26,377 nucleotides of DNA from a virus. The position numbers were made by a program, and so were the translations under genes. The DNA is taken from the IMG/VR virus record IMGVR_UViG_3300045135_000943, positions 1 through 26,377 of that record; one strand, written 5' to 3'. Shown piece after piece: positions 9,965-25,678 of this stretch; position 1 is the first letter of the stretch, and the number at the start of each line of letters is the position of its first letter. Below the pieces are notes generated by a model that was not told the origin of the DNA, did no database searches, and saw only the letters and a list, made by a program, of their open reading frames with translations.

Positions 9965-10553
9965 GTCCGCCGCCAGTAAGATTTTCAGACTTGTTGCTTT
10001 TCCACAGAATCTTAACGCCTTCTATGTCCTTCAAGAACTCAAAGAACAGGTCACTTGAATCCGTTTTCTGCTGCTGCGCATGGGTGTACTTTAGGTTGGA
10101 TGATCGGTCAAACTTGGCCAGCTCAGATTCACAAGTAATTGTTATCGCGTCGCCGTTTGAAGATCCTGCGGTTATGGTCATTACATCCATAAAGCCAGAC
10201 CAGACCTGCACCGGTGTATCTATGAGCGCATCGTCTTCATTGAGCGCACCAAGATAGATAGTAACGTCTCGCATGAAGTAGTCTTCGGTCAACGCGGCAG
10301 CAGACATTGTTGGGTCTAAGGCGGACAAAGTTAAGCTAATAGAATAAGGACTAACCTCAGCGCCTTCTTGTATGGATGAGATTGATCCAAAACTGCCAAC
10401 ACCAAGCCAGTCATGGCCGCCCCAAGTATAGGTACCAATGCCGTCGTGAGCGTAAGCGGTGCCTGATGCAAAGTCCATTTCGGCAAACATTATAATCTTT
10501 ACGGTCTGCTCAGTTAATGCATTCTTCAGGGAGGTGGAGAAGCTTCGACTCAT
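9924..10553 (-). CDS. Tail-tip protein, DUF2163-like (lambda L position)
   Basis: A 209-residue protein starting MSRSFSTSLKNAL. It contains AEMDFASGTAYAHDGIGTYTW, a beta-rich core and a WSGFMDVMTIT segment, the pattern of the DUF2163 tail proteins (as in gene transfer agents and many siphophages), which form part of the hub around the tail tip. No enzyme motif is seen. It overlaps the preceding gene by four bases and the K-like gene by 41 bases. Placement between an M-like protein and a peptidase-like protein supports a tip assembly role. Confidence 0.75.
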   Translation of the reverse strand: MSRSFSTSLKNALTEQTVKIIMFAEMDFASGTAYAHDGIGTYTWGGHDWLGVGSFGSISSIQEGAEVSPYSISLTLSALDPTMSAAALTEDYFMRDVTIYLGALNEDDALIDTPVQVWSGFMDVMTITAGSSNGDAITITCESELAKFDRSSNLKYTHAQQQKTDSSDLFFEFLKDIEGVKILWKSNKSENLTGGGRDDTIISIPNFTY

Positions 10554-11152
10554 GCCAATACATCCTCAATCGCTTCAATCGTAATGTTAGACACGTACAG
10601 GCTTTGCGTTGACCATGCAGGGTTGTTTGTCATCATAAACACACCATAAGGCGCGGCGTATTCAATTGATTCATCGTTGTCCGGGCTTTTTCGTATCGGT
10701 GGCGCGATAGGAATATTCAACACGCCACTTGCACTCGAATCAACGTCTGCTGTAACTATGTGCAACTCATTGTTAAATGATATATAGTCGCCAGCCGCAA
10801 AATACGTTGACTGACTGGCCGTCGCACCATCGGCCAAAAGTGTCGAACCTGTTTGGCCCGCACCCTGTACCTTTGGCGTTTGTGGCGGGATCGCCGTTCC
10901 GTATCTTACGGCACCATAATCCGAGATTCTCATCCTATGAGTTTGGCCGTCAAGCTTGGAAATAAACGCCTGCAGCTCGGATCGCTGTGCGCCAGTCAGG
11001 TTGGAAAACGTCATTGTCGTCTTCCAATATGACCCCTTACGCGATACGGTTTGGATCGCACCAGATAGTGGCGACTGGAACGTCTTAGTATTCGTCACTA
11101 ACTCAAATGTCTGCCGAGTCGGTGTAATGTCCGGGAAGTTATACGTCGCCAT
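10550..11152 (-). CDS. Distal tail / minor tail protein (lambda M position)
   Basis: A 200-residue beta-rich protein starting MATYNFPDITPTRQTFELV. It has a central RMRISDYGAVRYG and a Gly/Thr-rich loop (QGAGQTGSTLLADGATASQ, about 113-131). It directly follows the tape measure gene, where siphophages encode distal tail proteins. The N-terminal part (QTVSRKGSYWKTTMTFSN) resembles the tail-fold that rings the end of the tube. The start overlaps the tape measure stop by one base. The family is not named here because I cannot fix it from memory. Confidence 0.7.
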   Translation of the reverse strand: MATYNFPDITPTRQTFELVTNTKTFQSPLSGAIQTVSRKGSYWKTTMTFSNLTGAQRSELQAFISKLDGQTHRMRISDYGAVRYGTAIPPQTPKVQGAGQTGSTLLADGATASQSTYFAAGDYISFNNELHIVTADVDSSASGVLNIPIAPPIRKSPDNDESIEYAAPYGVFMMTNNPAWSTQSLYVSNITIEAIEDVLA

Positions 11153-13389
11153 TATACTAACCTTTGTCTACGCAGCAGGTCTTGAACTTGCTTGACTGTC
11201 TGCTGTGATGTGATCTCCATTGCCGCTACGATCTTCTGATCGACCTCTGGGCCTGAACCACTAGCGTCGATGTTATTGACGATAGTAACGCCGCCCATGT
11301 TTTGGTTCTTAGTGTGATCGATTACTGTTTCATTGGGGTGAAGGATAGCCGGGAATCCACCCTTGCCGTCAAGCCCGCCAGAACGCGGTCCAGCGCCTGT
11401 GAAGCCGCCACCCTCGAACGATTGAGCTTTGATCTGGGCAACCTGTGCCATACCGTTAGCGACCGCTAGGGCGGCGAATACAGGGCCGAGAGGCATACCG
11501 TAAGACGCCAATGCCTTCGTAGCTGCCGTGTGTGTGTTCATAATCGCCTGGGCGATCTGTACAGCTTTCTGCAAGGCAAACGCTTTCTTGTTGTATCTTG
11601 AAATACCAGATAGCTGACTATCAAGCTCACCCAGTACAAAGGTCGTCTTATCGCGCTCGGTCTTCTTCTCGAACTCGGCTCTCTGCCTTGACCCTTCGAT
11701 CTGGGCTCTTTCCAAATCAGAGACATCGCCCTCTTTCATCCTAGCGTTAATGATCGCTTCAGCAGTCTCGTTGGCGATAGCTTTTCGGATCTCAGCATAG
11801 GATCTTGATAGCTGAATACCAGCCTCTTCTGCCTCTTTTAGTGCATCAAGCTTCTGCTGCTCTCGTGATCGGATTTGGTCGATCTCTGACATGGTATCGA
11901 ATTCAACTTTTTGGGCGGCAGAGCGAATCTTTTCTTGCTCTTTTGCTTGACGGTCAATCTCAGCCAAAATGCCAGACTGCACTTCAGACAAGGCATCTGC
12001 GTAGCGTTGCTCCTCTTTAATGCGAGCATCAACAGATTTTTGCTGTAGCGCCGCTAGGTCGGCAAAATACTTCTCATTGAGACGACGCTGTAGATCCAGG
12101 GTCTCTTCTACGCTCAGCTCAGTGTTTTGAGTAAGCTGATCAAAGTTCTTGCGATAGTCCTCGTTGAGCTTCTCGAGGTCGGTCATAAGGCTTCTGCGCA
12201 AAGACTCAATATCGCTAGTCACCTTCTCAAAGCCGGGATCAATTTCTGTATTGTTGAATTCTTCTATGGCAGCGGGAAGGCCTTTGCCGATGACCTCTCT
12301 CAGGAACTCGGCTTGGTCTTCGGCGGATTTCATCTCATGCATTGAAGAGACAACAGAGTGCGCAAAATTAACAAATGCCTCATTTCCAGCTTTGGTTCCA
12401 GATGCCATCTCGAGCAACTGGTCCTGAACCATTGCAAACCCTTCGCCGCCGCCAAGCTGCGCTAGTTGAAGAGCAGACGCTAAATCTTTTGCTTCGTCAA
12501 CTGTTAGGCCAAATTCATTCTTTAGAGATTTTACTGCTGCTTCTCGCCTAGCCACCGCAGTTTGATCAGATCCCGCCGCATCTAAATCCTGAATACCTTT
12601 TTTAAGGCGATTTACGCTAGACCCAAACGCCTCATTCGCAAGCAAAGTAGCGTTCATAGCCTGCAAGTAATTCTTCTGCAAAGTAATCTTGGCTAGATCT
12701 TCAGATGATTTGGCTAAGTCAATAAAGTCTTGAGTTAGGGATCGGGTACCAGTAGCCACCTCCAAATTAATGGTATTGGCAAGGTCGCCCATTACCTTCT
12801 CTAGTTCACTAGCAACCTTCTTGGTCTTCTCGGACTCTGTAAAGAACACCGACATTGCGGCGGCAATAGCAATAACGGCACCAGCCATGGCTCCGCTCGG
12901 CCCCAATACAGAAGCAATCTGCGAGCCCTGCTGACCAAAGACCAGCATTGCATCGGTGCCCATCTGCATCTGAACTGCAATATCCTGGAACTGGTGGCCA
13001 AGCTGACCCGCCATGCCTCGAAGCTGTCGAGATCTACGCTGTCCGTCGGTTAAGGCTTGGTTGTTGCGATGCTGAGCCGCAGTCGCCATATCGGTTGCGT
13101 GAGCGGCGTTCATCTCAGCCATTTGCTTCTGGCGCAACTCGTTGGCTGAGTTTTGCAGGGTTTTTATGCGCCGAATCTCAGACAAGCTCGCACCATCAAG
13201 CGCCGCCTTGGCGCGCTGCATGGCGTCCTTGCCCTTCTTAAGCTCAATGTTTTGCAGGCGAAGAGAGTTGATTAAACGATCAGTGGAGCCGCTAGCGCCT
13301 TTGGTCTTCTTGGCAATCTTATCAAGAGATGCGCTAGCGTTGTCTTTTACCGCGAAGTCTAGAAGGACTACGCCGCCTGTATTTGCCAT
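11152..13389 (-). CDS. Tail length tape measure protein
   Basis: A 745-residue protein, much of it alpha-helical and charged. The segment MAGQLGHQFQDIAVQMQM at about residues 126-143, followed by FGQQGSQIASVLGPSGAMAG and a hydrophobic helix to about residue 183, is the classical N-terminal signature of lambda-family tape measures (prophage tail length TMP). Long coiled-coil stretches (about 390-590) fill the tube. A Gly-rich C-terminal part (FEGGGFTGAGPRSGGLDG) and a final helix follow. At roughly 0.15 nm per residue the predicted tail is near 110 nm. It begins inside the frameshifted part of the chaperone gene (56-base overlap), an arrangement conserved in siphophages. Confidence 0.93.
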   Translation of the reverse strand: MANTGGVVLLDFAVKDNASASLDKIAKKTKGASGSTDRLINSLRLQNIELKKGKDAMQRAKAALDGASLSEIRRIKTLQNSANELRQKQMAEMNAAHATDMATAAQHRNNQALTDGQRRSRQLRGMAGQLGHQFQDIAVQMQMGTDAMLVFGQQGSQIASVLGPSGAMAGAVIAIAAAMSVFFTESEKTKKVASELEKVMGDLANTINLEVATGTRSLTQDFIDLAKSSEDLAKITLQKNYLQAMNATLLANEAFGSSVNRLKKGIQDLDAAGSDQTAVARREAAVKSLKNEFGLTVDEAKDLASALQLAQLGGGEGFAMVQDQLLEMASGTKAGNEAFVNFAHSVVSSMHEMKSAEDQAEFLREVIGKGLPAAIEEFNNTEIDPGFEKVTSDIESLRRSLMTDLEKLNEDYRKNFDQLTQNTELSVEETLDLQRRLNEKYFADLAALQQKSVDARIKEEQRYADALSEVQSGILAEIDRQAKEQEKIRSAAQKVEFDTMSEIDQIRSREQQKLDALKEAEEAGIQLSRSYAEIRKAIANETAEAIINARMKEGDVSDLERAQIEGSRQRAEFEKKTERDKTTFVLGELDSQLSGISRYNKKAFALQKAVQIAQAIMNTHTAATKALASYGMPLGPVFAALAVANGMAQVAQIKAQSFEGGGFTGAGPRSGGLDGKGGFPAILHPNETVIDHTKNQNMGGVTIVNNIDASGSGPEVDQKIVAAMEITSQQTVKQVQDLLRRQRLV

Positions 13390-13869
13390 CGTTTTTCTGC
13401 CTCTCAGCCTTGATGTTTAAGTACGTAAACCAATGGTTATACTCATCGGCTGTCATTTCCAGAACTGTCGAAAGAGGCTGACCAAGGTGCTCCGCAAGAT
13501 GATACATGTAGTATAACTCGGTCGGCTCTCCTTGATCATTAGTTAGTTTTTTTCGCGATCCTCTTCAGTCTCGCCACTAACCTGCAACACGAAGTTTGCC
13601 AATTTCGCAACAATGTCTGGGTCAACACTGCGACGAAGCTTAACCTTGTCGCCAATATCAAACACCGCATTGCCTTCAGCATCTGTTAGGCCAAAGATGA
13701 CGGCGTACACCATGTAGTCTGCGGTATCGCCATCAGCTCGAGCCAACCACTTAGATCGGTCTTCCAGGGTGAGGTTTTTGCTATAAAGCTCAACACCCCA
13801 CTCTGAAACCTCAATCTTACGGACGGCCTTTGAGCTAAAATGCTCTACCGCCTTATCGATTAATGACAT
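13334..13869 (-). CDS. Frameshifted tail assembly chaperone (gpGT-like), -1 product
   Basis: The 0-frame runs from 13869 to the slippery site, then shifts -1 and continues to a TAG at 13336-13334, giving about 178 residues: 108 shared with the short form plus 70 more. The added part contains ELYYMYHLAEHLGQPL and a Trp in DEYNHWFTYL, a pattern (small helical T domain with leucines, MTxDEY and W) I recognise in gpT-like domains that contact the tape measure. The end overlaps the tape measure start. In lambda and most long-tailed phages the G:GT ratio set by the shift is needed for tail assembly, with the longer form recruiting the tape measure. Neither frame alone would explain this sequence. 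Confidence 0.85.
13543..13869 (-). CDS. Tail assembly chaperone, short form (gpG-like)
   Basis: A 108-residue protein starting MSLIDKAVEHFSSKAVRK and ending ETEEDREKN. It lies between the tail tube gene and the tape measure gene, the place of lambda gpG. A charged helical protein with a segment VELYSKNLTLEDRSKWLARA matches the tail assembly chaperone family. Its last sense codons contain the frameshift signal, after which a -1 read-through makes the long form described separately. It starts one base after the tube gene stop. Confidence 0.88.
   Translation of the reverse strand: MSLIDKAVEHFSSKAVRKIEVSEWGVELYSKNLTLEDRSKWLARADGDTADYMVYAVIFGLTDAEGNAVFDIGDKVKLRRSVDPDIVAKLANFVLQVSGETEEDREKN
13546..13552 (-). 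promoter_or_regulatory. Programmed -1 ribosomal frameshift site A-AAA-AAC
   Basis: Reading the minus strand, the 0-frame is GAA AAA AAC TAA, so the heptamer A AAA AAC fits X XXY YYZ exactly, and the stop codon follows at once. A seventh A precedes it. Slipping one base back continues the open frame for another 70 codons. A pause-inducing structure further on is not obvious to me by eye, but the adjacent stop itself could help. This site type is well established for chaperone frameshifts. Confidence 0.9.
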
Positions 13870-13870
13870 A

Positions 13871-14260
13871 TTACGCTACCGTAGATTCCGTCAATGCGCC
13901 GTTGCCGGTTGCTGAGAACGAAGCCTCAACCAGGCCATCAAACGAAGCGCTCTGGCTTACTGAGCTAATGATCGCAGTGCCGCTCCAATAAACCGCACCA
14001 GAAGTGTCTTCTGAGTACAGGTTTAAGGTAACCTCAGTGCCCACATCAAGCGCCAACTGACCGTTGGTGTCGGTGTCGTCCCAGTATGCATTGAATGACG
14101 CAGTCCAAGACTTTTGGGTCGCCTTGTTGCTCATCCATGCGTCGCCCATGACAGTGTCATTAACCACTTCGCTGGTCTGCTCTACTGACCAGTCGCGGAT
14201 TTCAGCAACGGCATTTGCGCCGATTTTTACCGCTCCGTCTTTACCTACTCGTGTTGCCAT
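13871..14260 (-). CDS. Major tail tube protein (lambda V-like)
   Basis: A 129-residue beta-rich protein, starting MATRVGKDGAVKIGANAVAE. It has the tail-tube pattern of an N-terminal strand pair, a central WMSNKATQKSWTASFNAYWDD and a C-terminal FDGLVEASFSATGNGALTE. The SWTASFNAYWDDTDT segment is common among marine and gene-transfer-agent-like tube proteins. It sits directly before the chaperone, the standard place. The start ATG has a GGAGATGAG ribosome-binding region. It polymerises into the tail tube around the tape measure. The product should be one of the most abundant in the tail. Confidence 0.85.
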   Translation of the reverse strand: MATRVGKDGAVKIGANAVAEIRDWSVEQTSEVVNDTVMGDAWMSNKATQKSWTASFNAYWDDTDTNGQLALDVGTEVTLNLYSEDTSGAVYWSGTAIISSVSQSASFDGLVEASFSATGNGALTESTVA

Positions 14261-15294: not shown

Positions 15295-16530
15295 TTAGCT
15301 GCCGCCGTCGTTGCCTAAGCAGAAGCTTACAGCGTGACGTACTGCCACATCGACCGTCTGGAATGCTACCAGGCGTACAGTGCCGGTAGTTGACAGGCTA
15401 TATGGATCTACAGTTAAGTCAACGCCAGACCACATGCCGATCAGCAAGTCGTTAAAGTTGCCGAAGTAGGCATCGCCAGAGGCACACTGGTTAGATACAA
15501 CAGTGTTGTAGCCGTTAGCGCGACCGTCAGGGCCAATAACGAACTGAGCAGTGTTAGACGCTTTCTCAACAGTCTTCAACGCGCCGTACATTGCCGCAGG
15601 CATAATGTAAGCCAAGTTACCAAGAAGAGCATTGTCTTCTGCAACTTTGGTTTCCATATCAACAACCTGAGCAAAGGTTGGGATCAAGTCAGGCGCAGTA
15701 CCGAAGTCTACGGTGTTGATGCCTGAAGTGTTCTTGATACCAGTGGGCTGGCCAGAAGAACCAGAGCCTGACAGAGCCGCCAAGTCAATGGCAAGAGCCA
15801 AAGCCATAGCAAGGTCGTCGCGAACAAGGTTTTCCACACTTAAGCTAGACTGCTGTCGTAGCTGGCGCGTGATGTCCGTGTAAGCCGCAAGCTGGCGGGG
15901 AACCATAGATACGGTGCCGAAAGTAGGTTCTGACTCAGTAGCCGCACCGCCTTCAGTATCGATCCAGGCCGCAGTAGAAGCAGTCGCCTTGCGTGGGATC
16001 TTCACGTCACCAGACAAGCCGGTCAACATGCGAGCACCAGCAGCCATGACAGAAGAGCTGTTTCGCAACACGTCAATGAACTCACCCTGACGGAAGTCAT
16101 CTGAGAACAGTGCAGAGTCGTCGCCTGAGTTCAGGTCACGTTTGCCAAGCACTTCGAATGGAACCATGATACCTTGGGGATCACGGCCATACTTCTGAGC
16201 AGCGGCACGAGATACTTCAAACTCAAACGCAGCGGCTTCTTGAGCGCGACGGTCGGTTGGGTTAGCCAAAGCATTAACTACTTTGAACAGTGAGAAACGC
16301 TTCTGCTCTTTCTCAGTCAGACCAACTTTCTGGTCTTCCAAAGCGCGAGTAGAGCCGATGACATCTAACAGTTCACCACGGAACTCTTCGATGCTACGAC
16401 CTTCTGCAATCGCTTTCTGAGCAAGGTCAGAGCGGCTGTGTTTTGCGCCTAGCTCAACAATTTGAGCGGCGTTACGTTGTGCGGCTTTCTTGGCTTCTGC
16501 CTCAACCGCTGCAATATCGACTTCAGACAT
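15295..16530 (-). CDS. Major capsid protein from an internal start (HK97-type)
   Basis: Within the fusion an in-frame ATG at 16530-16528 (MSEVDIAAVE) has a strong GAGGAGA ribosome-binding site six bases upstream. Translation from there gives 411 residues, the normal length for an unprocessed HK97-fold capsid protein with a helical delta domain at about 1-105. The mature coat probably begins after cleavage around residue 110. That two starts in one frame make different protein ratios is inferred from the sequence; the internal ribosome-binding site is plain. Confidence 0.75.
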   Translation of the reverse strand: MSEVDIAAVEAEAKKAAQRNAAQIVELGAKHSRSDLAQKAIAEGRSIEEFRGELLDVIGSTRALEDQKVGLTEKEQKRFSLFKVVNALANPTDRRAQEAAAFEFEVSRAAAQKYGRDPQGIMVPFEVLGKRDLNSGDDSALFSDDFRQGEFIDVLRNSSSVMAAGARMLTGLSGDVKIPRKATASTAAWIDTEGGAATESEPTFGTVSMVPRQLAAYTDITRQLRQQSSLSVENLVRDDLAMALALAIDLAALSGSGSSGQPTGIKNTSGINTVDFGTAPDLIPTFAQVVDMETKVAEDNALLGNLAYIMPAAMYGALKTVEKASNTAQFVIGPDGRANGYNTVVSNQCASGDAYFGNFNDLLIGMWSGVDLTVDPYSLSTTGTVRLVAFQTVDVAVRHAVSFCLGNDGGS

Positions 16531-17550
16531 AATAGTCTCCTCATTTTGAAAGTCGGTTCTAATTACAGGTTCGGGGGATGCTTGCTTGGCGGGCTCACCT
16601 TCAACTTCCAGGTCGGCAGATCGCCCAAGACCTACTGAGGTGTCAGCAGGAATTGATACCAAACTTGCCTCCATTGGCTTCCAAGACTTAGCCACATAAG
16701 TGTCCTTGTCTTTTCTCTCCAACTTGTTAATCGAGTAGCCCACACTAATATTAGTACGGATTCCGTCGATCACGTCGTCAAAAGCCTCTTTAGCCAGCGC
16801 ACCCTTCCCAAAGCGCACCGTCGCCCGGAGTCGCCGGGCCGAGCTATCGAGTTCGACACTTTTTACCACGCCTACGACTTTAGTCGGGTCATGGTCGAGC
16901 AAAAGGGGAGCCCTGCCTGAGTTCAGGAATGACAGGTCAATCGCCTCCTCGCTATGCTCTAATACTTCTTTACCAAAAGAACGCATAACCGGCTCTTCCG
17001 AGCTTACTGCGATCTTGGCTTCGCGTGCTTCTTCATCAATCGGCGAAGAGTCAATAACCATCGCACGGTGTTCAAGTTCCACCGATGCTAGGCGGTCGCC
17101 TTCGGTCGCCTCTTCAGGAGCATTTACAGGCTCCTCTATGGCCTCTTCGCGAACTTCTACTTCATCTTCCATAGTATTTTCCTCAAGCTCGTCATAAGCT
17201 CTTTCATCCATACTCTCAATTCTATCACGAATTTTCTTGCTCCACGAGAAACCTGCGTCGCCGCCCCAAAGTAACCACGCAATCTTTCCTGCGCTGGGGT
17301 ATCCCTCCTCGCCTTGATTAAAGCCTTCAGCCTCTTTATCAACTTCGTGACGAGAAAAGAATGAATACATACGCTTGACAGTATCAATAGATAGCTCACG
17401 CCCGTTAACAATGTCACGAGCACGAGCAACGCCCACAGCAGTACCGCCTCGACCGTACTCTTCACGGAGGGCCAATCCACGCTTGGCGGCAGAAACCATC
17501 CCGCGTGTTGGCTTAGTATCAATGTCTTCACCTTTATACTTCGCCATCAT
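15295..17550 (-). CDS. Prohead protease fused to HK97-fold major capsid protein
   Basis: A 751-residue fusion. Residues about 1-115 form a helical domain (RARDIVNGRELSIDTVKRMY). Residues about 155-310 are an S78-type prohead protease: LLLDHDPTKVVG with H220 and TNISVGYSI with S269 are the expected catalytic pair. Residues 341-751 are an HK97-fold major capsid protein, including FTYDI-like YTDITRQLRQQSSLS and VKIPRKATAST. A single open frame joins them. A second start at residue 341 with a strong ribosome-binding site is described separately. The first two codons are both ATG; the second (17547) is better spaced from AAGGA. The start overlaps the portal gene end by 17 bases. The protease likely cleaves itself and the capsid delta domain during head maturation. 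Confidence 0.92.
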   Translation of the reverse strand: MMAKYKGEDIDTKPTRGMVSAAKRGLALREEYGRGGTAVGVARARDIVNGRELSIDTVKRMYSFFSRHEVDKEAEGFNQGEEGYPSAGKIAWLLWGGDAGFSWSKKIRDRIESMDERAYDELEENTMEDEVEVREEAIEEPVNAPEEATEGDRLASVELEHRAMVIDSSPIDEEAREAKIAVSSEEPVMRSFGKEVLEHSEEAIDLSFLNSGRAPLLLDHDPTKVVGVVKSVELDSSARRLRATVRFGKGALAKEAFDDVIDGIRTNISVGYSINKLERKDKDTYVAKSWKPMEASLVSIPADTSVGLGRSADLEVEGEPAKQASPEPVIRTDFQNEETIMSEVDIAAVEAEAKKAAQRNAAQIVELGAKHSRSDLAQKAIAEGRSIEEFRGELLDVIGSTRALEDQKVGLTEKEQKRFSLFKVVNALANPTDRRAQEAAAFEFEVSRAAAQKYGRDPQGIMVPFEVLGKRDLNSGDDSALFSDDFRQGEFIDVLRNSSSVMAAGARMLTGLSGDVKIPRKATASTAAWIDTEGGAATESEPTFGTVSMVPRQLAAYTDITRQLRQQSSLSVENLVRDDLAMALALAIDLAALSGSGSSGQPTGIKNTSGINTVDFGTAPDLIPTFAQVVDMETKVAEDNALLGNLAYIMPAAMYGALKTVEKASNTAQFVIGPDGRANGYNTVVSNQCASGDAYFGNFNDLLIGMWSGVDLTVDPYSLSTTGTVRLVAFQTVDVAVRHAVSFCLGNDGGS

Positions 17551-24842: not shown

Positions 24843-24871
24843 CCCCCCCCTAAAAACGCCCTACCCCCCCC
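24843..24871 (-). repeat. G-run cluster with G-quadruplex potential
   Basis: The minus strand carries eight Gs (24871-24864), then TA, GGG, CGTTTTTA, and eight Gs (24850-24843). Four or more G tracts with short loops (one of eight bases) could fold into a quadruplex in the transcript or single strand. The homopolymers may also slip during replication. Confidence 0.5.
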
Positions 24872-24971
24872 ACCGTGGGATAGTAAAAGGGGGTACCGTG
24901 GGATAGTAAATAAAAAACGCCTACCCCCACCGTGGGATAGTAAATAGCCAGACCCACCGTGGGATAGTAAA
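24872..24971. repeat. Four direct copies of ACCGTGGGATAGTAAA
   Basis: Exact 16-mers on the plus strand at 24872-24887, 24895-24910, 24929-24944 and 24956-24971, separated by 7, 18 and 11 bases. Two are preceded by the longer unit TAAAAACGCCTACCCCC. Most copies carry a small dyad CCCAC-C-GTGGG followed by an asymmetric ATAGTAAA. They begin 8 bases after the gpZ-like gene's stop. Irregular spacing excludes a CRISPR. They resemble iterons or a multi-site operator. Confidence 0.85.
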
Positions 24972-24979
24972 TAAATTTT

Positions 24980-25678
24980 TTATCGACCGGCGATGCGATG
25001 AAATTCTTTTTGGACGATGTCCTGGAAGTTCGGCCCGAAATTTCTGTCAAAAGATTGCATGAAATTTTCCTGGGCGACATCTGGCGCTTGCGGGAAGGTG
25101 GCTCTCTGGCGACGGCTTTTTCGGCTTAGGTACACAAGCAGCTTTGGCTTTCGGTTCTTACCTTTGCCCACGAACTTAAATAGACCGAACTTGCCGCGCT
25201 TAGTCCGCCCCAGTCCAAAGTCGCTCCCCTTCATCCCCTTGCGCAAGCTTGGAGCCGGGAAGTTCGTATCGGCCTTAGCAGCGGCAATCATCATCCGCTG
25301 CTGTAGCCAGTTGCGCGGATAGTTCCCGCGTTTATTGACCGTCTTTACTTTAGACTTTTTGTTCGGCTCTGGTATCCGGGAATTTCCGCGCCCCTTCCTG
25401 GTGCCGCCAAAAATAACCTCCCGCATGTATTCCCGGTCACCTTTAAAGTAAATCGCCCCCCGGAGGTTACGCTTACTGCTCGCAATGTACGACATGCCCT
25501 GCTTGGTAAACCGCACCGGGCCGCCCTCGATGCCGCCCTGGTCCATCGCGGTCTTTACACCATTGATGCCATGCTGAAACGCCCGGTTCATCGTCAGAGA
25601 GGTCGCAAACGGAATCTGGCTTTCCGCCAGGTTGCGGATGGCCTCGGGCAGCTTATCGAGCTGAATCTGAACCGGCAT
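24980..25678 (-). CDS. Putative minor tail protein Z-like (tail completion), displaced
   Basis: A 232-residue very basic protein. The N-terminus (PEAIRNLAESQIPFATSLTM, about residues 11-30) starts a helix like that of lambda gpZ, followed by NRAFQHGINGVKTAM. The body is rich in Lys/Arg/Gly (KGKNRKPKLLVYLSRKSRRQ near residue 180), ending in a helix NFGPNFQDIVQKEFHRIAGR. This layout matches prophage minor tail protein Z, which caps or joins the tail. In lambda, Z lies between FII and U, but that place is empty here (14708), so the gene seems to have moved upstream of the terminase. Its Shine-Dalgarno GGAGG lies within a copy of the 16-bp repeat, and the repeats flank it on both sides. It looks GC-richer than neighbours. 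Assignment is by pattern, not certain. Confidence 0.6.
   Translation of the reverse strand: MPVQIQLDKLPEAIRNLAESQIPFATSLTMNRAFQHGINGVKTAMDQGGIEGGPVRFTKQGMSYIASSKRNLRGAIYFKGDREYMREVIFGGTRKGRGNSRIPEPNKKSKVKTVNKRGNYPRNWLQQRMMIAAAKADTNFPAPSLRKGMKGSDFGLGRTKRGKFGLFKFVGKGKNRKPKLLVYLSRKSRRQRATFPQAPDVAQENFMQSFDRNFGPNFQDIVQKEFHRIAGR

Follow-up and report, generated by a model that had tools for sequence, protein, structure and literature searches.

A putative gpG/gpGT frameshift site followed by a covarying RNA stem in the tail module of a virus record

The tail module of the IMG/VR virus record IMGVR_UViG_3300045135_000943, from a marine-type phage, very probably encodes a chaperone pair of the lambda gpG/gpGT type, made by -1 ribosomal frameshifting at an A_AAA_AAC heptamer with a slip that is probably promoted by a downstream stem. 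The stem is a real conserved RNA structure, as proven by covariation among relatives. Frameshifting of tail chaperones is already established (Levin 1993 and Xu 2004, as cited in PMC5009743). The frameshift described here is this already-known mechanism and the stem is its variant part. The ratio of gpG to gpGT is crucial to lambda tail assembly, and the open sources describe no structural stimulator for it. Compensatory evolution pinpoints the bases of the stem, which makes the tuning of the gpG:gpGT ratio by the phage directly testable.

Organization of the tail module and of the shift site

The structural genes are located on the minus strand of the record, whose positions 1 to 26,377 were analysed as a whole and are referred to as the window. 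The module is arranged in the order tail terminator, tail tube, G, (T), tape measure and distal tail. Gene G sits between the major tail protein gene and the tape measure gene, an interval that holds two overlapping frames, G and T (Table 1). In a PHROG search, G matched the tail assembly chaperone family phrog_344 with an E-value of 2.3e-10. Neither G alone nor T alone matched a tail family in Pfam or NCBIfam, a sequence search of the PDB returned chance matches only, and a profile of G found zero relatives among 84,980 genomes.

An earlier note, written from the sequence alone, had placed the pair at 13334-13869, and these coordinates proved exact when re-read on the minus strand. The heptamer does occupy the last sense codons of G with the stop immediately next to it (13552-13546 and 13545-13543, respectively), as the end of the gene reads GAT CGC GAA AAA AAC TAA. 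The -1 frame runs for the 70 further codons that had been announced, up to a TAG at 13336-13334, and it overlaps the beginning of the tape measure gene, which starts at 13389, over 56 nt. Both the 0 and the -1 frame are open over a stretch of about 20 nt, which contains exactly one heptamer of the form X_XXY_YYZ. The pair had also been said to be missed by simple gene calling. Simple gene callers indeed drop the T part because it has no usable start codon.

Table 1. Features of the frameshift locus and of the neighbouring genes
Feature	Position	Strand	Evidence
Major tail (tube) protein gene, directly upstream of G	13871..14260	minus	phrog_1407, E 7.3e-18
Gene G, 0-frame tail assembly chaperone (gpG-like), 108 aa, ATG start	13543..13869	minus	phrog_344; position in tail module
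Upstream TGA closing the -1 frame, 12 nt 5' of the heptamer	13565..13567	minus	Sequence
Shine-Dalgarno-like GAGG, a possible 5' stimulator located 7 nt before the heptamer	13560..13563	minus	SD core counts in relatives
Slippery heptamer A_AAA_AAC, in the 0 frame	13546..13552	minus	Read from sequence; conserved in relatives
0-frame stop TAA, directly 3' of the heptamer	13543..13545	minus	Sequence; same spot or +1 codon in 55/55 distinct T-anchored loci
T extension in the -1 frame (70 codons and a stop codon), lacking a usable start codon	13334..13546	minus	phrog_337; pN/pS 0.22
5' arm of the stem, UGAUCAAGG	13530..13538	minus	Fold and covariation; eight core pairs standard in 53/53
3' arm of the stem, CCUUGGUCA	13479..13487	minus	Fold and covariation; 12 independent two-sided changes counted on the tree
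Tape measure protein gene, 745 aa, 56-nt overlap with the T frame	11152..13389	minus	phrog_1538, E 4.3e-31

Conservation of the heptamer

Loci related to G were taken from viral contigs. Relatives of T were fetched with peptides of the T frame only, a query that cannot favour loci carrying the heptamer. The T-anchored set comprised 80 loci, 55 of which are distinct, and each of these 55 has a 0-frame X_XXY_YYZ heptamer placed 7 or 10 nt ahead of the stop codon of G. This heptamer is A_AAA_AAC in 52 loci and G_GGA_AAC in three. The G-anchored loci consist of 72 with A_AAA_AAC and a group of eight with A_AAA_AAA. Family-wide, the end of G is GAC/GAT-CGC-GAA-AAA-AAC-TAA. On a tree from which the columns of the heptamer and of the stem were left out, G_GGA_AAC was derived from A_AAA_AAC twice independently. 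This change swaps the 0-frame lysine codon AAA for the glycine codon GGA while the slippery motif stays, which indicates that selection acts on the motif rather than on the peptide.

The same arrangement was found in phage records whose G is 27-33% identical. The heptamer is A_AAA_AAC in phi3LM21 and in Pelagibacter phages, and G_GGA_AAC in RcCronus, for which a joined CDS is annotated. In Roseobacter phages (CRP group), A_AAA_AAC was present in 80/80 fetched loci. A sub-group of the relatives (L124, L127, L129, L130 and L139) displays A_AAA_AAA followed by GC in place of A_AAA_AAC; the family stem described below is missing there and a different hairpin forms further downstream in the fold. 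In the Pelagibacter-phage family (L275-L354), nine A precede the C in 80/80 loci, and transcriptional slippage could contribute at this nine-A site.

The seven A in a row of the present site and the nine of the Pelagibacter relatives bring up transcriptional slippage as an alternative, in which the mRNA itself would be altered and the fusion would result from normal translation. We regard it as very improbable at this locus. Three distinct relatives, of two origins, carry GAGGGAAAC, which contains no run longer than three, and have the same T frame. In addition, the covarying stem located 7-8 nt downstream is what a stimulator of ribosomal shifting would look like, whereas slippage of a polymerase on a homopolymer gives it no obvious function. 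A second alternative is that the frame break is a sequencing error, since indel errors are common in homopolymers, or the scar of a decayed gene or pseudogene. Its likelihood is negligible, as all 55 distinct loci, which come from independent samples, show the same break, also at GAGGGAAAC, and purifying selection acts on either side of it. The artefact or pseudogene reading is refuted by this conservation.

The T extension

The T frame is under purifying, protein-level selection. Its pN/pS ratio is 0.22, close to the 0.21 of G, and the two remaining frames of this DNA give 1.2-1.5. Absence of a junction peptide and of conservation of the -1 frame in relatives had been named in the earlier note as grounds for rejecting the pair, and the frame was found to be conserved. 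The T-domain-like character that the note ascribed to it is borne out by homology. The T sequence of this phage alone matches phrog_337 weakly (E 0.021), and this family is matched by 10/10 members of the T alignment with E <= 0.1 (best 0.0023). Lambda T matches phrog_337 as well (E 4.7e-07), and lambda G is a weak match to phrog_344 (0.049). A mixed alignment that included distant T sequences was too variable for searching, and one of its rows proved to be out of frame.

Another possible reading is that T is translated separately, through initiation at an internal codon or re-initiation beyond the stop of G, so that no fusion would be made. A T-frame ATG is present at 13507 with AAGGAG upstream of it. 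The distance between this SD-like sequence and the ATG, about 20 nt, is too long, and the ATG position is occupied by GTT or ATT in several relatives (RVY, HVY, FIY). The conserved part of T begins right at the frameshift (LxxDQG), where there is no start codon, and an internal start leaves the conserved in-frame heptamer unexplained. Separate translation of T is thus hardly credible in comparison with a fusion made by frameshifting.

The identification of T represents a gain for annotation, as several public records of this group omit T or list a loose hypothetical ORF. T was absent from the annotation of the HTVC and CRP records that were inspected, and the hypothetical ORF p41 of phi3LM21 is a piece of T.

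A covarying stem downstream of the heptamer

The earlier note had seen no obvious downstream structure. This statement does not hold, as a stem with strong covariation begins 7-8 nt 3' of the heptamer. In the RNA fold, UGAUCAAGG pairs with CCUUGGUCA to form a 9-bp stem closing a 42-nt loop (13529-13488). The stem starts 7 nt after the heptamer and its conserved core starts at 8 nt. As a single sequence, this phage gives a modest folding signal, with z between about -1.5 and -2.8 according to the stretch folded, which makes the stem easy to overlook.

Covariation was assessed on 53 junctions with pairwise identity below 90%. The eight core pairs of the stem are standard in 53/53 junctions, and five core pairs underwent double changes. 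Pair 1 is G-C or C-G, pair 2 is A-U, C-G, G-C or G-U, pair 4 is C-G or G-C, pair 5 is A-U or G-C, and pair 8 is G-C, A-U or G-U. Counted on the tree, the compensatory, double-sided changes amount to 12 independent events. Both arms of the stem encode conserved peptides, DQG and HLGQ, and a null in which codons are redrawn and the protein is kept was therefore used. The mean number of stem pairs is 8.7 versus 6.7 under this synonymous-codon null, and complete 9-bp stems are formed by 36 sequences versus 1.4 after randomisation, the relatedness of the sequences being not fully removed by these null tests. The stem also ranks first when all pairs of columns between -59 and +150 are scanned. In that same scan no second stem shared by the relatives as a whole was found as a pseudoknot partner for the loop. 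No match to Rfam was obtained in the window. The stem is not universal: it is absent from the L124 group, and the Pelagibacter relatives show no conserved stem.

The usual spacer between a heptamer and a -1 stimulator is 5-9 nt (PMC5009743), a range that includes the 7-8 nt observed here. Judging from its position and its conservation, the stem probably sets the frequency of frameshifting. It could alternatively be real and have another role, such as limiting translation of the tape measure gene or protecting the mRNA, and the T frame does reach the tape measure start about 90 nt past the stem. Such a role is unlikely, although less so than the alternatives considered above. The fixed position of the stem 7-8 nt after the heptamer matches known -1 stimulators, and the stem of Roseobacter phages, which has a different 3' partner, is also located near the heptamer, at 6 nt, so that the spacing is shared.

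A contribution from the 5' side was also considered. An SD core (GAGG or GGAG) is present 5-16 nt upstream of the heptamer in 50/53 relatives, to be compared with a mean of 36.8 and a maximum of 47 in 1000 redraws of the synonymous-codon null. The mean hybridisation energy of the SD duplex is not beyond the codon null. The upstream GAGG is perhaps a co-stimulator of the slip.

Stems at other tail-chaperone sites

The stem of the Roseobacter-phage family (L195-L274) comprises 12 bp and joins GCGAUCCAUUCA to UGAAUGGGUCGC, arms that are also given as GCGATCCATTCA and TGAATGGGTCGC. It begins 6 nt after A_AAA_AAC and closes about 80 nt. Paired bases occupy 96% of the cells and covariation is modest; pairing exceeds that of sequences with redrawn codons (11.6 versus 10.1, with a maximum of 10.6). 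Two different stems with a similar start indicate that the spacing, and not the partner sequence, is common to the two families.

In lambda, the single fold of the 80 nt following GGGAAAG (from record position 10109) gives -36.4 kcal/mol with a z of -3.2, and an 8-bp closing stem is located 7 nt after the heptamer. The relatives of lambda that were fetched amount to two representatives at 97%, too alike for covariation to be assessable. A tentative and rather doubtful extension is that tail-chaperone frameshift sites in general, possibly including that of lambda, would have overlooked long-loop stems 6-8 nt after the heptamer which would set the gpG:gpGT ratio. The open-access papers searched contained no report of a covarying stem at a tail-chaperone site; subscription papers, including the primary lambda ones, lie outside this body of work, which makes the absence uncertain.

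Comparison with known systems

The locus resembles lambda gpG/gpGT in its gene order, in the -1 shift near the end of G and in the overlap of T with the tape measure gene. Both T parts match phrog_337, and the lambda mechanism is reviewed in PMC5009743. The two systems differ in the heptamer, which is G_GGA_AAG in lambda and A_AAA_AAC here, and in the stop, which begins 15 nt beyond the heptamer in lambda and directly adjoins it here. The T part is 70 aa long, whereas that of lambda is 144 aa long. A covarying downstream stem further distinguishes this phage from lambda.

RcCronus, to which RcRhea and RcSaxon can be added, is similar in that the RcCronus G is 29% identical and its frameshift is annotated as a joined CDS. 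Its heptamer (G_GGA_AAC) is also directly before the stop but differs in the X bases, and a single fold displays a local hairpin only.

The frameshift cassette of Escherichia coli dnaX comprises an upstream SD, a short spacer and a compact hairpin. The layout of the present locus resembles that of dnaX, with an SD-like sequence upstream, an A_AAA_AAx heptamer, a short spacer and a downstream stem. In contrast, the dnaX gene is unrelated, and its hairpin is compact whereas the loop is about 42 nt long here. The shift site of dnaX is A_AAA_AAG (PMC5009743). The g-t genes of the haloarchaeal virus HCTV-2 use A_AAA_AAC as shift site (PMC5009743), as in the present case, although their host is an archaeon.

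Proposed mechanism

The heptamer, the selection on the T frame and the homology of G and T point to the known gpG/gpGT -1 ribosomal frameshift. The pair proposed in the earlier note is thus strongly supported by gene order, by homology of both parts, by purifying selection, by the placement of the heptamer and by RcCronus. From the sequence we infer frameshifting at this locus, its efficiency and its role in assembly, the stem being the putative stimulator. Most ribosomes would read G and stop at TAA, giving gpG (108 aa). A minority would slip by -1 on A_AAA_AAC, where tRNA-Lys and tRNA-Asn would pair anew with AAA AAA. The slipped ribosomes would translate 70 further codons, giving gpGT (178 aa, ...REKN-LTNDQGEP...). 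The stem, placed 7-8 nt downstream at the mRNA entrance of the ribosome, would raise the slip, and the SD-like GAGG would perhaps help. By analogy with lambda, gpG would coat the tape measure protein, and gpGT would recruit the major tail protein through its T domain.

Lambda requires its two products in a ratio of about 30:1, and there gpG attaches to the tape measure protein while T attaches to the major tail protein (PMC5009743). The efficiency at two other tail-chaperone sites is reported to be 6-7% (PMC3711429). A point against the proposed mechanism is that slippage in E. coli is far weaker on A_AAA_AAC than on A_AAA_AAG (PMC5009743), and E. coli may not be the host of this phage.

Other features of the window

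A 751-aa ORF at 15295-17550 combines a prohead protease (Peptidase_S78) and a major capsid protein (Phage_capsid). Among the genes downstream of the tail module, an HNH endonuclease with a weak AP2-like domain (1101-1646) is probably a homing endonuclease. The intergenic region 24860-24985, on the minus strand, contains four spaced copies of TTTACTATCCCACGGT, most of them then followed by GGG. Each copy of TTTACTATCCCACGGT includes the near-palindrome CCCACGGTGGG, and the copies look like repeated operator or origin sites.
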